DNA of 24,776 nt from a virus, in IMG/VR virus record IMGVR_UViG_3300006920_000233, positions 1 through 24,776 of that record; one strand, written 5' to 3'. The translations under genes were made by a program, and so were the position numbers. Of the stretch, positions 2,889 to 14,586 are shown piece by piece; within the stretch, counting starts at the first letter, position 1; each line of letters opens with the position of its first letter. Under the pieces are notes generated by a model that made no database searches, was not told where the DNA came from, and saw only the letters and a program-made list of their open reading frames with translations.

Positions 2889-3058
2889 TATTTCAACCAT
2901 TCCATAACTTTAGATATAAACGATTTATTCTCACTAGCCTTTCGACCACACTCAAAACAAAGCTTTTTACCTCTGCGTTGAGGGTAATATAAATCGCCTG
3001 AATTGATAGCGTGACCTCTTTTACATTCAGTGTTTCTTTGTGCTCGTTTTGAGTTCAT
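2888..3058 (-). CDS. Small zinc-binding protein (56 aa)
   Basis: This 56-aa basic protein has a clear metal-ligand pattern: C12xxxH16 near the N-terminus and C34xxC37 after a 17-residue insert containing LYYPQRRGKKL. The arrangement resembles short phage HNH-like/zinc-knuckle proteins of the type C-x-x-G-H...C-x-x-C. It ends FISKVMEWLK, and its stop is coupled to ninG (TAATG). It may act with NinG on DNA or be a nucleic-acid-binding accessory, which is inference from neighbourhood. No HNH catalytic triad is evident. Confidence 0.6.
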   Translation of the reverse strand: MNSKRAQRNTECKRGHAINSGDLYYPQRRGKKLCFECGRKASENKSFISKVMEWLK

Positions 3059-3076
3059 GATTACTTATCCTTAAAT

Positions 3077-3265
3077 TTAATCCCAATCGCGCATCATCAC
3101 AAAGTCGATGTTACTTAACCCTGTAAAATCCCATTCATCTAATTCAGCCTTTGGTATATCAACCTTTTTACCGTCTTTGTAATACTGGTTTTCAGAGGCA
3201 TTATTTTTATTTATTTCTGCTCTTTGCTCTTGTAGCTCATAAACATCTTCTACGTTAATTTTCAT
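3077..3265 (-). CDS. Hypothetical protein (62 aa)
   Basis: A highly charged, acidic 62-aa protein (MKINVEDVYELQEQRAEINK...) with a helical N-terminal half and an aromatic C-terminus ending MMRDWD. It starts 2 nt after the stop of the NinB-like gene, with an AAGG-type Shine-Dalgarno inside the end of that gene. No family is recognised. Confidence 0.5.
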   Translation of the reverse strand: MKINVEDVYELQEQRAEINKNNASENQYYKDGKKVDIPKAELDEWDFTGLSNIDFVMMRDWD

Positions 3266-3267
3266 AA

Positions 3268-3711
3268 TTAAGCCTTATAATCCAAATTTAAACCCATAGC
3301 TCCAAAGTGATTTTGTAAATCATCTCTAAGCCTATTGTGCATCGGTGTATCAAATAATCTTGTTACTGGTAGCATTTCCATTTCAAGAAGCTGATGTTCG
3401 TAACTTAATTGAAAATAACCTTTAGCATTTAACCCTTCACCGATTAACGGCCCCATATATTCATGCGCTAAAAGTATCGGCATTCCAAAGGTAAATTTTA
3501 TATACCTTGTTGTTTCAGGAATAGTTAACGCTAGTATATTGGATATTTCAGGTATCCAAGCCTGATAAGCCGCATTAGCTGGCAAGCTTCGTTTCTTTTT
3601 TCTATCAGAAATATTAAGTACAAATTTCTTTTGAGGATTAGCGCCCAGGAACACATCTATTTTTCTGTAAACGTCCTGCCTAAGTGTTAATGATATCGGT
3701 TCATTTTTCAC
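3268..3711 (-). CDS. NinB-like recombination-associated protein (tentative)
   Basis: This 147-aa protein starts at a GTG that overlaps the previous stop as GTGA. After an N-terminal beta/alpha segment comes FVLNISDRKKKRSLPANAA (about 30-48), resembling the R-S-L-x-Q-N-x-x-Y/W motif of lambda NinB/YbcN-type proteins. These bind ssDNA and assist annealing recombination. Downstream residues (IPEISNILALTIPETTRYIK) fit the helical region that follows in that family. The motif has Pro-Ala where NinB usually has a Gln, so the match is partial. Lying four genes upstream of ninG supports the call. Alternative: an unrelated phage protein. Confidence 0.45.
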   Translation of the reverse strand: MKNEPISLTLRQDVYRKIDVFLGANPQKKFVLNISDRKKKRSLPANAAYQAWIPEISNILALTIPETTRYIKFTFGMPILLAHEYMGPLIGEGLNAKGYFQLSYEHQLLEMEMLPVTRLFDTPMHNRLRDDLQNHFGAMGLNLDYKA

Positions 3712-6007: not shown

Positions 6008-6709
6008 TTAATGGCCATGAATCACTAAAACTACATGGCCATCATCTAAATGCTTTTTAATTTCTAGTTGGTAAAGCTCTGCAGTATCTTTTTGCTCCCA
6101 AACTCTATTGGTCCCATTTGGTAGCTTGGTCCTGCGAACATCTTCAACAGTGAAATTTAATATACCTTTTTCTCTTTTAGTGGCCACGCTAATTAATTTT
6201 GCAAACTCCCACTTGGCCACGTGTTTTTTATTAGGGTTAAACGAATTCACAGTTTCTATACAATCCATCGTGAACCATTCACCTCTAATATGAAATTGCT
6301 TGCAGGCTCTATGTAACATCTTTTCTATTTTGATCGCGTCCTTTGGCGTACTGGCCACGTAGTATTTCCATAATAGGACTAATTCACTAGGGCTTGATGT
6401 CTGCAGCGATTTAAGTCGGCCGTTAACGTTACTAGACATTCCTAACTTAATTTCTTGGCCATTACTGATCGCATATAAATAATGCTTCTTTTTAACTGCA
6501 GGTTTCTTTTTCACATAAGTTAAACTTTTGGCCAATGATAATTGAGCTGGTGTAAAGTAGTTATTAATCTGAAACCATCTAACTAATGACTCAGTTTTTT
6601 GTTTATCTGCAGTACTTGTTGTTTTGGCCAATGAAAAAGCTTTTAGCTTAACAAAGATCACTTCTTTATAATTTAACTTTATTTTCTTATGTTTTTTAAC
6701 TTTAGACAT
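6008..6709 (-). CDS. T5orf172/GIY-YIG-superfamily protein (233 aa)
   Basis: The central region fits the T5orf172/MUG113 branch of the GIY-YIG nuclease superfamily: YLYAIS (77-82), IKLGMS (87-92), R98, E129 and GEWF (143-146). The N-terminal 75 residues are Lys-rich, with a helical WFQINNYFTPAQLSLAKSL segment; the C-terminal 80 residues are extra. It probably binds or nicks DNA, but activity cannot be shown from sequence. It is first in the leftward unit after a 360-nt leader and has an AAAGGG Shine-Dalgarno. Eight TGGCCA palindromes lie within the gene, in two codon frames, which is highly unusual for this AT-rich DNA. Confidence 0.7.
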   Translation of the reverse strand: MSKVKKHKKIKLNYKEVIFVKLKAFSLAKTTSTADKQKTESLVRWFQINNYFTPAQLSLAKSLTYVKKKPAVKKKHYLYAISNGQEIKLGMSSNVNGRLKSLQTSSPSELVLLWKYYVASTPKDAIKIEKMLHRACKQFHIRGEWFTMDCIETVNSFNPNKKHVAKWEFAKLISVATKREKGILNFTVEDVRRTKLPNGTNRVWEQKDTAELYQLEIKKHLDDGHVVLVIHGH

Positions 6710-7070
6710 AACTAAATCCCTTTCTTATCTCTAGATGTCTTAATCAAGCTCAACTAGCTCTAGACATTTAGATGATAATAATAAGGTCCCCCTAAATTAA
6801 TATTTCATCGTTGATAACACGGATACAAGTAAAAGCATGGCCGTGATTTATAAACCCGTATTTAGATTCTCGGTTCCCTGAATATTTATTTAATAGCTTA
6901 TTTTGCCGTTAGGGATTTTGACAAGATACCAATTAACTTGGCTATTTGAAGTGGTATTCGAGGCAATAAAAAAGGCTTAGGGAATATCTCTGGTGGATTG
7001 GGTTAACCTAATAACCCCAGAAACATTCACTAAACCTTATCTATCATTCGGAATCCACGCCAAACAACAA
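6710..7070 (-). promoter_or_regulatory. Structured 5' leader of the T5orf172 gene (no ORF)
   Basis: This 390-nt gap holds no convincing gene. The leftward RNA can form several helices: 7052-7058 with 6993-6999 (7 bp); 7030-7038 with 6972-6980 (9 bp, one G-U), followed by an A6 on the plus strand (U6 in the RNA); 7000-7005 with 7012-7017; 6926-6931 with 6952-6957; 6892-6897 with 6941-6946; 6818-6822 with 6841-6845; and 6731-6740 with 6762-6771 (one mismatch) just before the RBS. The first two cross each other, so they are mutually exclusive or pseudoknotted. This suggests an attenuator-like leader or ncRNA. It matches no riboswitch I recognise. Confidence 0.4.
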
Positions 7071-7075
7071 TTACT

Positions 7076-7103
7076 ATTATACTTTGTTATGCCTATTTAT
7101 CAA
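7076..7103 (-). promoter_or_regulatory. Leftward promoter for the T5orf172 operon
   Basis: Read leftward, TTGATA (complement of 7098-7103), a 16-nt spacer and a consensus TATAAT (complement of 7076-7081). It overlaps the last codons of the methyltransferase gene and would start transcription near 7070, creating the long leader. This makes the small-gene operon independent of, or additional to, transcription from the methyltransferase promoter. Confidence 0.55.
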
Positions 7104-7963
7104 GCTTTGTTAAAAAAGCTTTTGAATATATGAACGATAACATCAACATGCCACCCATTACCGAGCATTCTCATAGATTGAGTTTTCGAGCTTACCTTAA
7201 AATAATCATCCGGCACCCCATGCAGCCTACAAGAATCAATAAGTGATGGTATAAATACCTCATCACCTATAGCTATATTTGTGGCGCCTGAATTACTAAT
7301 ACCCTGTCCGTGAGTGGTTAAGCATTTAGCCTTTTGCTCTAAAGTTCTTATTGCTGATCTGCTTTTTGTGTATGCCAAAGTTCCTTTTACTTTCTTGTTA
7401 AACCTTTCTGTAACATTTACGCCACCGGACCATATATCACCTATACACGAATTGATTTTTTTTGGCGCCTTAAAGTCCCATGTAGCCCAATAATTCCTGT
7501 TTCTTGATATTGGAGCGATAAGAGATGCATTTATATTTACCGGGCTAATCCCCATGCATTCATTTATAACGTCTAAAAACTCCTGCTTCATGACTACGTT
7601 CTCTAGGAAAAAGTGAGCGTTACCATTAAAATCTAAACAATGGTTTACTATATCCATGTAGGTAAAAAACAAAGCTGACCTTGGATCGTCAAATGCTAAT
7701 TGTTTACCAGCCATAGAAAAACCCTGACAAGGCGAACCACCCATGATCAGATCAATACTAGCCCAATCAACATCCCACTCCTTCCACTTGGTTACATCGC
7801 CTAAATGAATCATATTAGGCCAATTAGCGTTAGACTCTTTTATTGCGTGTACATCAAGCTCACTTGCGTAATATTTAGCAACCTTAACCCCTATCTTCTT
7901 GAGTGCTATCTGCCCGCAACTCATACCATCAAATAAACTCAATACAGTAATACCTTTTTTCAT
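7100..7963 (-). CDS. DNA (cytosine-5) methyltransferase
   Basis: All core C5-methyltransferase motifs are visible in order: I LSLFDGMSCGQIA (8-20), II ASELD (33-37), III GDVTKW (55-60), IV GGSPCQGFS (75-83, nucleophile C79), VI ENV (121-123), VIII RNRNYW (154-159), IX RLHGVPDDY (246-254) and X LGNGW (267-271). At 287 aa it is short, with a compact target-recognition region between VIII and IX, so the recognition site cannot be read. It transfers methyl from SAM to cytosine in DNA, probably protecting phage DNA. No cognate restriction enzyme is adjacent. A GAGG Shine-Dalgarno precedes the start. It is transcribed divergently from the replication genes, from overlapping promoters. Confidence 0.92.
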   Translation of the reverse strand: MKKGITVLSLFDGMSCGQIALKKIGVKVAKYYASELDVHAIKESNANWPNMIHLGDVTKWKEWDVDWASIDLIMGGSPCQGFSMAGKQLAFDDPRSALFFTYMDIVNHCLDFNGNAHFFLENVVMKQEFLDVINECMGISPVNINASLIAPISRNRNYWATWDFKAPKKINSCIGDIWSGGVNVTERFNKKVKGTLAYTKSRSAIRTLEQKAKCLTTHGQGISNSGATNIAIGDEVFIPSLIDSCRLHGVPDDYFKVSSKTQSMRMLGNGWHVDVIVHIFKSFFNKA

Positions 7964-10712: not shown

Positions 10713-10916
10713 CTATAAAGTTTTAAGCATATCCTCAAAGTAGCTTTTATCAGTAGCACGCATTAACTTTTCAGCTTCATAATCATCTAGTTTTTTTCTT
10801 ACCTCGCTACATGCTATGCCGTTTTTGTGAGGTTTACGTTTTAAGGGGTGGGTTTCTGCTTCAATTATATTCATTATAGAGTTTGCCAGTTCGTCAGCTA
10901 GTAGATTAGTTTCCAT
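10713..10916 (-). CDS. Hypothetical protein (67 aa), third gene of the XRE/GIY-YIG cassette
   Basis: A 67-aa helical protein (METNLLADELANSIMNIIEA; DYEAEKLMRATDKSYFEDML) with a basic centre (PLKRKPHKNGIACSEVRKKL). Its ATG overlaps the stop of the GIY-YIG gene (TAATG), showing translational coupling, and it ends just before the shared terminator. It may be a partner of the nuclease, such as an inhibitor or specificity factor; this is inference from gene order. Confidence 0.6.
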   Translation of the reverse strand: METNLLADELANSIMNIIEAETHPLKRKPHKNGIACSEVRKKLDDYEAEKLMRATDKSYFEDMLKTL

Positions 10917-11383
10917 TATACACTCTCCAATAATTCAGGTGATTGATAAACGAAGTTTTCTATATGCTCAATTAATGAATTTGTGTATTCGCGCTTAGTG
11001 TAAATAATTCCCTCTTTTCCTCCGACGGATGGGCATCCGACAAACGAATTATTCTCTAGAAGTTTTTTGTTTATCACTTGTATCACCTCTTTTGCAAAAG
11101 CCCTATCACCTACAAAGGTGTTGTTTTTTGGTAGGATCTTATTTAGTTTTGGTCTGCATCTCGCTATTTCCGCAGATTCCATCTCGTCAAGTTGATCAAT
11201 TTCGCAGTTAAAAAAGGAAAATGAATCGAACTCCTTTTCTCTTATGTGGCTCTTTATTCTTGCTGTCAATGAAACGGACTGCCCGACATACGTTGCATCA
11301 CCGTTAAGGTATAATGTATAAACAGATGGAGATCCTGTTTCTGCAAGTGCTACTTTTTCTATTTGTATAATTATTATGTTCAT
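10916..11383 (-). CDS. GIY-YIG nuclease family protein (155 aa)
   Basis: The N-terminal 81 residues form a GIY-YIG domain: SVYTLYLNGDATYVGQS (20-36), then R42 and H46 in the helix, and the probable catalytic Glu69 with N81 in MESAEIARCRPKLN. These residues are those needed for catalysis, so it is probably an active DNA endonuclease. Residues 85-155 are an extra domain with a near repeat (NNTFVG, NNSFVG). The start at 11383 is set by TAATG overlap with the XRE gene; a longer version with a start at 11422 is less likely. It may be a homing-type, recombination or interference nuclease. Confidence 0.75.
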   Translation of the reverse strand: MNIIIIQIEKVALAETGSPSVYTLYLNGDATYVGQSVSLTARIKSHIREKEFDSFSFFNCEIDQLDEMESAEIARCRPKLNKILPKNNTFVGDRAFAKEVIQVINKKLLENNSFVGCPSVGGKEGIIYTKREYTNSLIEHIENFVYQSPELLESV

Positions 11384-11595
11384 TACTCTTCTCCTAATTG
11401 GATGAATTTCCAAAGCGTACAATTTAATATTGCTGCAACCTCATCAAGCTTCGCTATTGATAGCTTTCCATTCTTCATGATGTTAGATATGTAAGTTGGC
11501 GTACACTTCATCTTGTCAGCCAATTGTTTTTGGTTCATGCCTTCATGTGCTAAGGCTATTCTTAATGATTTCTCTAGTTTTTCTTGCAATGTCAT
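11383..11595 (-). CDS. XRE/Cro-type HTH regulator (70 aa)
   Basis: A single-domain lambda-repressor-like HTH: LRIALAHEGMNQKQLADKM, then CTPTYISNIMKNGKLSIAKL and DEVAAILNCTLWKFI. The helix-turn-helix spans about residues 20-45. At 70 aa it has no dimerisation or RecA-cleavage domain, so it resembles Cro, an antitoxin or an R-M controller (C) protein rather than a full CI repressor. It is transcribed divergently from the recombination operon and coupled to the GIY-YIG gene. It probably acts at the operators between 11596 and 11744. Confidence 0.85.
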   Translation of the reverse strand: MTLQEKLEKSLRIALAHEGMNQKQLADKMKCTPTYISNIMKNGKLSIAKLDEVAAILNCTLWKFIQLGEE

Positions 11596-14112: not shown

Positions 14113-14586
14113 ATGATCACTCAATCTAAACTAAAAGAAATACTTGATTACGATATCGACACAGGCGTTTTCACTTGGAAGGTTTCTGCTTCTTCTTCCG
14201 TATCTGTCGGCTCGATTGCTGGGGCTATAGATAATAAGGGCTATCGAAGAATAGGGCTTAACCGAACTTATAAAAGAGCGCATAGGTTAGCTTGGTTTTA
14301 CGTGTACGGTGAATGGCCAAAAAGCCAGATAGACCACATAAATAGAAATAGAGATGACAATATGTTGTCAAACTTAAGGGCCGCAAACGACCAGCAAAAC
14401 TGTAGAAATAGGTCTCCGAAGATAAACAAGTTTGGCGTTATAGGGCTATCTTGGTGCAAAAGAAGTAAAAGGTTTTTTGCTAGGATAACCATAGACAGAA
14501 AAACCGAGTATCTTGGGTACTTTTCCGATATGTTTGAGGCTATATGCGCCAGAAAATCAGCAGAAAATAAATATTTTAATTTTTAG
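14113..14586 (+). CDS. HNH homing-type endonuclease with AP2 domain
   Basis: The 157-aa protein has the architecture of free-standing phage HNH-AP2 endonucleases. An N-terminal segment (LDYDIDTGVFTWKV) is followed by an HNH core with H57 in RAHRLAW, D74-H75 in QIDHIN and the N/L-rich NMLSNLRAANDQQNCRNR. The AP2-like DNA-binding end (about 104-155) is NKFGVIGLSWCKRSKRF, then ARITIDRKTEYLGYF. Such genes spread into phages by cutting alleles without the insert. It lies between ssb and small genes, after an 86-nt spacer with a folded leader, consistent with an inserted mobile gene. Confidence 0.88.
   Translation: MITQSKLKEILDYDIDTGVFTWKVSASSSVSVGSIAGAIDNKGYRRIGLNRTYKRAHRLAWFYVYGEWPKSQIDHINRNRDDNMLSNLRAANDQQNCRNRSPKINKFGVIGLSWCKRSKRFFARITIDRKTEYLGYFSDMFEAICARKSAENKYFNF

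Follow-up and report, generated by a model that had tools for sequence, protein, structure and literature searches.

Clusters of two palindromic hexamers in a GIY-YIG nuclease-like gene of related phages

The highly iterated palindromes (HIPs) of cyanobacteria, HIP1 and its alternates, occur at densities of approximately one per kb and are associated with methyltransferases in some genomes (PMC4390886). Within the T5orf172 class of homing endonucleases, 87% of members carry a Zn-finger DNA-binding domain of the CapR/DUF723/DUF4397 type (PMC10448857). The locus described here has points in common with both systems, as two palindromic hexamers, TGGCCA and CTGCAG (hereafter the words), are concentrated in a single phage gene that is assigned by its domain to the T5orf172/MUG113 GIY-YIG class. 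No palindrome arrays confined to one gene were described in the titles and abstracts of the literature searched.

The words and their gene in the window

TGGCCA occurs 11 times in the window, which is the whole 24,776-nt stretch of phage DNA that was analysed, and eight of these copies lie within one gene on the minus strand (Table 1). The original prediction had listed eight copies between 6012 and 6630, and all of these coordinates were verified; its count of three copies in the remainder of the window was also correct, with those at 2465 and 21123 in place and the one assigned to 14324 lying instead at 14314. When the window was shuffled 100 times with dinucleotide composition preserved, 11 copies were never reached and the mean was 4.4. 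The estimate that well under one copy would be expected from composition was borne out, given that base composition predicts 0.08 copies in the 702-bp gene against the eight observed (p ~4e-14). Synonymous shuffles that kept both the protein and the codon usage gave a mean of approximately 1.7-1.8 copies and reached eight in 0 of 5000 trials, with a Poisson p of ~3e-4. On the coding (minus) strand two codon frames are represented, xTG-GCC-Axx by five copies and xxT-GGC-CAx by three, as first reported. All four copies of CTGCAG in the window lie inside the same gene, where synonymous shuffles gave a mean of 0.4 and reached four in 0 of 5000. The earlier observation is real and larger than first noted, as CTGCAG is also clustered. 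The tetramer GGCC is under-represented, both across the window (26 copies against ~40 in shuffles) and in the part of it outside the gene (17 against ~28-37 expected).

The 233-aa product of the gene matches the Pfam families MUG113 (E=7.5e-12, 46.1 bits, cut-off 22.3) and T5orf172 (E=3.4e-7, 31.2 bits, cut-off 20), and its PHROG matches are endonucleases or homing endonucleases. The motif YLYAIS..IKLGMS..GEWF is kept among its relatives, with G142, E143, W144 and F145 of GEWF invariant across five of them, and the glutamate may be the catalytic residue. The protein is probably a free-standing, homing-endonuclease-like nuclease; no Zn-finger domain of the CapR/DUF723/DUF4397 type is present among its Pfam domains, and its predicted structure, with a mean pLDDT of 46, is too poor for use. 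The terminase encoded in the window has its nearest counterparts in Pseudoalteromonas phages BS5 and HS2 (73% identity), suggesting that the host is probably a marine gammaproteobacterium. Two further genes of the window resemble nuclease genes by eye. One, at 10916-11422 (-), encodes a second GIY-YIG-like protein (VYTLYLNGDATYVGQS), adjoins an HTH repressor gene and has no Pfam match at E 0.01. The other, at 14113-14586 (+), resembles HNH/AP2-type homing endonuclease genes, holds the TGGCCA at 14314 and is similar in kind to a gene at 2893-3501 in the related phage contig L006.

Table 1. Positions of the gene, the words and the adjoining features in the window
Feature	Position	Strand	Remarks
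GIY-YIG (MUG113/T5orf172) gene, 233 aa	6008..6709	-	holds the palindrome cluster; Pfam, PHROG, conserved motif
TGGCCA	6012..6017		abuts the stop codon
TGGCCA	6036..6041
CTGCAG	6079..6084
TGGCCA	6181..6186
TGGCCA	6214..6219		common to all four genes
TGGCCA	6352..6357		window copy only
CTGCAG	6401..6406
TGGCCA	6456..6461		common to all four genes
CTGCAG	6496..6501		common to all four genes
TGGCCA	6529..6534		common to all four genes
CTGCAG	6607..6612		window copy only; Ala-Asp in the window, Asp-Asp or Asp-Gly in relatives
TGGCCA	6625..6630		kept in three of the four genes
Non-coding leader of the GIY-YIG gene	6710..6890	-	conserved in eight phages; neither word in it
Leader hairpin/inverted repeat, CACGG..ATGC-loop-GTAT.CCGTG	6818..6845	-	9 pairs
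C5 cytosine methyltransferase	7100..7963	-	PF00145, E=1.4e-27; judged outside the phenomenon

DNA-level constraint on, and gain of, the words in one gene clade

The gene of the window was compared with those of three viral contigs, L005, L006 and L007; the four are related by descent and share 75-78% DNA identity among each other. Copies of TGGCCA and CTGCAG number 8 and 4 in the window gene, 8 and 5 in L005, 4 and 4 in L006, and 5 and 3 in L007, which amounts to 8-13 words inside each gene, and the 1-kb flanks of the gene are free of both words in all four phages. Both words are approximately 50-100 times more frequent inside these open reading frames than base composition predicts. Across the four loci, GGCC is enriched 15-fold and TGCA 2.4-fold inside the gene relative to the sequence outside it, every other palindromic tetramer shows less than a twofold enrichment, and GGCC is depleted outside the gene in all four phages. 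Elsewhere in the four loci the words are at or below expectation, with one exception, CTGCAG within the structural region of the L007 record. There, a 16-kb stretch that lies away from the gene (L022, G003:C1:6284-22427) contains 14 CTGCAG, several-fold above expectation, and CTGCAG is nearly absent from most phages related to this one.

Neither word is present in the sister gene L014, which has ~64% amino-acid identity and the same leader and architecture, nor in the genes of the more distant relatives L011, L013 and L015, and no comparable clusters occur in the T5orf172 genes of phage ICP1. The count across the window and among homologues, proposed with the original prediction, thus gave a low density elsewhere in the window and, among homologues, a mixed outcome, with words kept by close relatives and absent from sister and distant genes. 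Since L014 is wordless despite its shared architecture, the protein family does not need the words. Word clusters as a general property of T5orf172 genes were rejected on the basis of ICP1, L011, L013 and L015.

The words occupy 17 positions in the alignment of the four genes, 11 for TGGCCA and 6 for CTGCAG, and lie in all three codon frames. At alignment positions 178, 251 and 493 TGGCCA is present in all four genes, as is CTGCAG at 211; at the remaining positions the word is found in one, two or three genes, often alongside amino-acid differences. These include GAT against GCA at position 100 (Asp/Ala), AAG or AAA against GCA at 367 (Lys/Ala), GTT against GCC at 217 (Val/Ala) and GAA against CAT at 671 (Glu/His). 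With the ancestral state inferred from the other clade members and L014, this suggests that some words were gained together with multi-base replacements that changed Lys, Asp and Val to Ala and Glu to His.

At positions where the amino acids are identical, word hexamers are kept in 48 of 51 comparisons in frame 1 and 16 of 17 in frame 2, the two most frequent codon frames (94% overall), against 46-47% for non-word hexamers, with p=3e-4 in a site-level permutation, although these pairwise comparisons are not independent because the genes share ancestry. Each word in each of the four genes exceeds its synonymous shuffles (p<=0.005, mostly <2e-4). When the codon changes observed between any two members were permuted among equal codons, too few words were obtained in all 12 of the 12 within-clade comparisons (p<=0.002). 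Therefore, as had been claimed at the outset, repeated amino acids do not account for the pattern, and neither do codon usage or simple inheritance. The two palindromic words are under DNA-level constraint within this gene clade and have been gained within it, suggesting that the DNA itself, besides the protein, is under selection.

A reading in which codon usage, protein repeats or chance created the words, amplified by descent from one unusual ancestor, draws on the four sites common to all four genes and on single-gene p-values that are moderate with codon usage fixed. These p-values are only moderate because the shuffle nulls retain a codon usage that is shaped by the words themselves. Each lineage, however, has new sites at new positions, conservation at synonymous positions is in excess and permuted codon changes fail to reach the observed counts. 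Position turnover, retention and the permutation tests appear largely to refute this reading, which is improbable. RNA structure was also rejected as a cause: the predicted mRNA folding of the gene is only slightly stronger than that of synonymous shuffles (z -0.6 to -2.2), and RNA pairing needs no repeated identical palindromes.

Candidate readers and alternative origins

The palindromy of the words, the presence of two of them, their freedom of position and frame and their sharp confinement to the open reading frame fit sites of dimeric or restriction/modification-type proteins. It is tentatively proposed, at somewhat less than an even chance, that TGGCCA and CTGCAG are DNA-level recognition sites selected inside this gene and read by dimeric DNA-binding or restriction/modification-type proteins. 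The likeliest readers would be host- or phage-encoded proteins of two specificities acting on a mobile nuclease gene, such that the number of sites would count more than their place, and binding or cutting at the words may shut the gene down or confine breakage and its repair to this gene. Consistent with such selection are the high word counts in four genes with none in the 1-kb flanks, the excess retention of words where the protein is unchanged, the outcome of the permuted codon changes, and the partial turnover of positions, some of them arising with amino-acid replacements. On the other side, there are just four gene copies, all kin by descent, the sister gene is wordless, the single-gene p-values are only moderate, two different words require two readers or a shared cause, and turnover at a near-constant number would equally result from a word drive acting across a donor genome. 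Of the original interpretation, the DNA-level nature of the sites is supported by the synonymous shuffles, the permuted codon changes and the excess conservation; binding by the encoded T5orf172 protein, also suggested originally, is weakened by L014 and the ICP1 genes, which have no clusters.

The DNA upstream of the gene contains a leader that lies directly ahead of a GIY-YIG/MUG113 gene in the window, L005, L006, L007, L014, L011, L013 and L015, and its 9-bp hairpin is invariant across these eight phages, with one compensatory change in L007. The leader of L006 and L011 lies just downstream of a tRNA gene. An Rfam search of the leader and the gene returned nothing above thresholds. In genome contigs the leader pattern has two matches only, and these look like chance because neither is followed by a related gene. 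The leader may act as an operator or as a regulatory RNA, or may belong to the mobile unit.

Beyond the leader, 391 bp from the gene, lies the C5 cytosine methyltransferase gene, whose PF00145 match covers the catalytic part of the enzyme. It had been suggested that the words are GGCC methylation targets of this neighbour, which its proximity and the annotation of some of its phage relatives as HaeIII-type methylases would favour. Its best PDB matches are DNMT3 enzymes, and HaeIII methylase is matched only at E=1e-9 and in the N-terminal third. The records of L005, L006 and L007, the other word-carrying phages, may be fragments but yielded neither a relative of this enzyme nor a PF00145 match, and the methyltransferase was therefore rejected as a cause; GGCC is also scarce across the rest of the window, and CTGCAG, which is not a GGCC site, would be left unaccounted for. 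This suggestion is not supported and is very improbable. Methylases of the N6/N4 type (PF01555, PF02086) were likewise not found in six phage records searched, which may be fragments.

Among 426 open reading frames (361 kb) from related and comparison phages, this gene provides most of the strongest excesses of palindromic hexamers. A GC-rich palindromic hexamer reaches at least 4 copies per 700 bp in nine cases in ~598 kb from 16 phage records. Seven of these cases belong to this gene, and in the two others the hexamer is also CTGCAG. The first of the two is a DnaB-type helicase gene of 1.4 kb in Vibrio phage 1.236.O (L031:21316-22695). It was compared within a Vibrio phage group of genes (L031, L039, L040 and L048-L051), where CTGCAG numbers 6-7 in the homologues of 1.198.A, jenny 12G5 and L048, falls to 4, 3 or 1 in more distant homologues and is missing from two others. 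The second is a Rha-KilAC antirepressor gene (L027:10197-10880) with four CTGCAG and three CTCGAG, and its homologues in six other Vibrio phages have no such clusters. The DnaB and Rha-KilAC genes suggest that such word clusters recur.

The main rival to selected recognition sites is that the gene has most of its evolution in other replicons, in which both words are highly iterated palindromes comparable with HIP1 in cyanobacteria, and has recently moved into these phages, and would therefore stand out in genomes poor in these words. Several observations are in keeping with such a donor: the placement of the words is indifferent to codon frame and encoded protein, two unrelated words show the effect together, similar CTGCAG clusters are present in the DnaB and Rha-KilAC genes, the L007 phage has its 16-kb stretch with 14 CTGCAG, T5orf172 genes have been described as mobile (PMC10448857), and HIPs are linked to methyltransferases (PMC4390886). 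However, with 8-13 words in 0.7 kb the gene surpasses the HIP density of approximately one per kb (PMC4390886) by a factor of about ten or more, no words occur in the leader, which accompanies the gene, and DnaB is an ordinary replication gene of related phages and not an obvious recent import. The search of genome contigs gave no donor, with the two leader matches lacking a related gene and no related protein found. An origin in a donor of this kind is possible, though rather doubtful.

TGGCCA is the MscI/BalI site and CTGCAG the PstI site, and breaks made there by common host restriction enzymes could promote recombination through which the nuclease gene is copied from one co-infecting phage to another. 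The clusters are made of words that are avoided elsewhere, as expected under host cutting: GGCC is depleted, and CTGCAG occurs 10 times against ~67 expected in 14 records with the cluster genes excluded. Nevertheless, twelve cut sites would first raise the sensitivity of the phage, no restriction system was identified, and the DnaB cluster is left unexplained, making spread assisted by restriction an improbable account.

More generally, and only as a conjecture that is less likely than not, some phage genes may carry gene-confined arrays of short palindromic recognition sites in genomes where such sites are otherwise avoided. Selection at the DNA level would keep these arrays by number over position, tolerating amino-acid changes as the price, which would be a cis-acting mode without a match in the titles and abstracts searched. 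If words are selected within one phage gene, they must have a reader in the cell that acts at this gene, and this would reveal a new control of a mobile nuclease, an interplay of homing genes with restriction systems, or a hidden donor pool subject to a word drive of its own. The system lends itself to testing, since both words are defined 6-bp sequences and nature provides four alleles rich in sites as well as one that lacks them.

Comparison with known systems

The words resemble HIPs in being GC-containing palindromes that lie far above expectation and ignore the reading frame (PMC4390886), and both contain the GC step, as do several HIPs. Unlike HIPs, they are confined with sharp edges to one 0.7-kb gene and have few copies elsewhere in the genome, their density is approximately ten times higher, two words are involved at once, and no matching methyltransferase was found in the other phages, whose records may be fragments. 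Genome-wide over-representation, the defining feature of HIPs, is absent here.

The gene shares its domain and its character as a free-standing mobile phage gene with T5orf172/GIY-YIG homing endonuclease genes (PMC10448857) and with Odn of ICP1 (PMC8263062), and, as for such genes, a tRNA gene is nearby in two of the relatives. It differs from the T5orf172 class in that the Zn-finger DNA-binding domain common there (PMC10448857) was not found, and from the ICP1 members in its palindrome clusters, which these do not have. As in phages that avoid restriction sites, these genomes have a deficit of CTGCAG and GGCC outside the gene, whereas the concentration of the same words in one gene is the reverse of avoidance.
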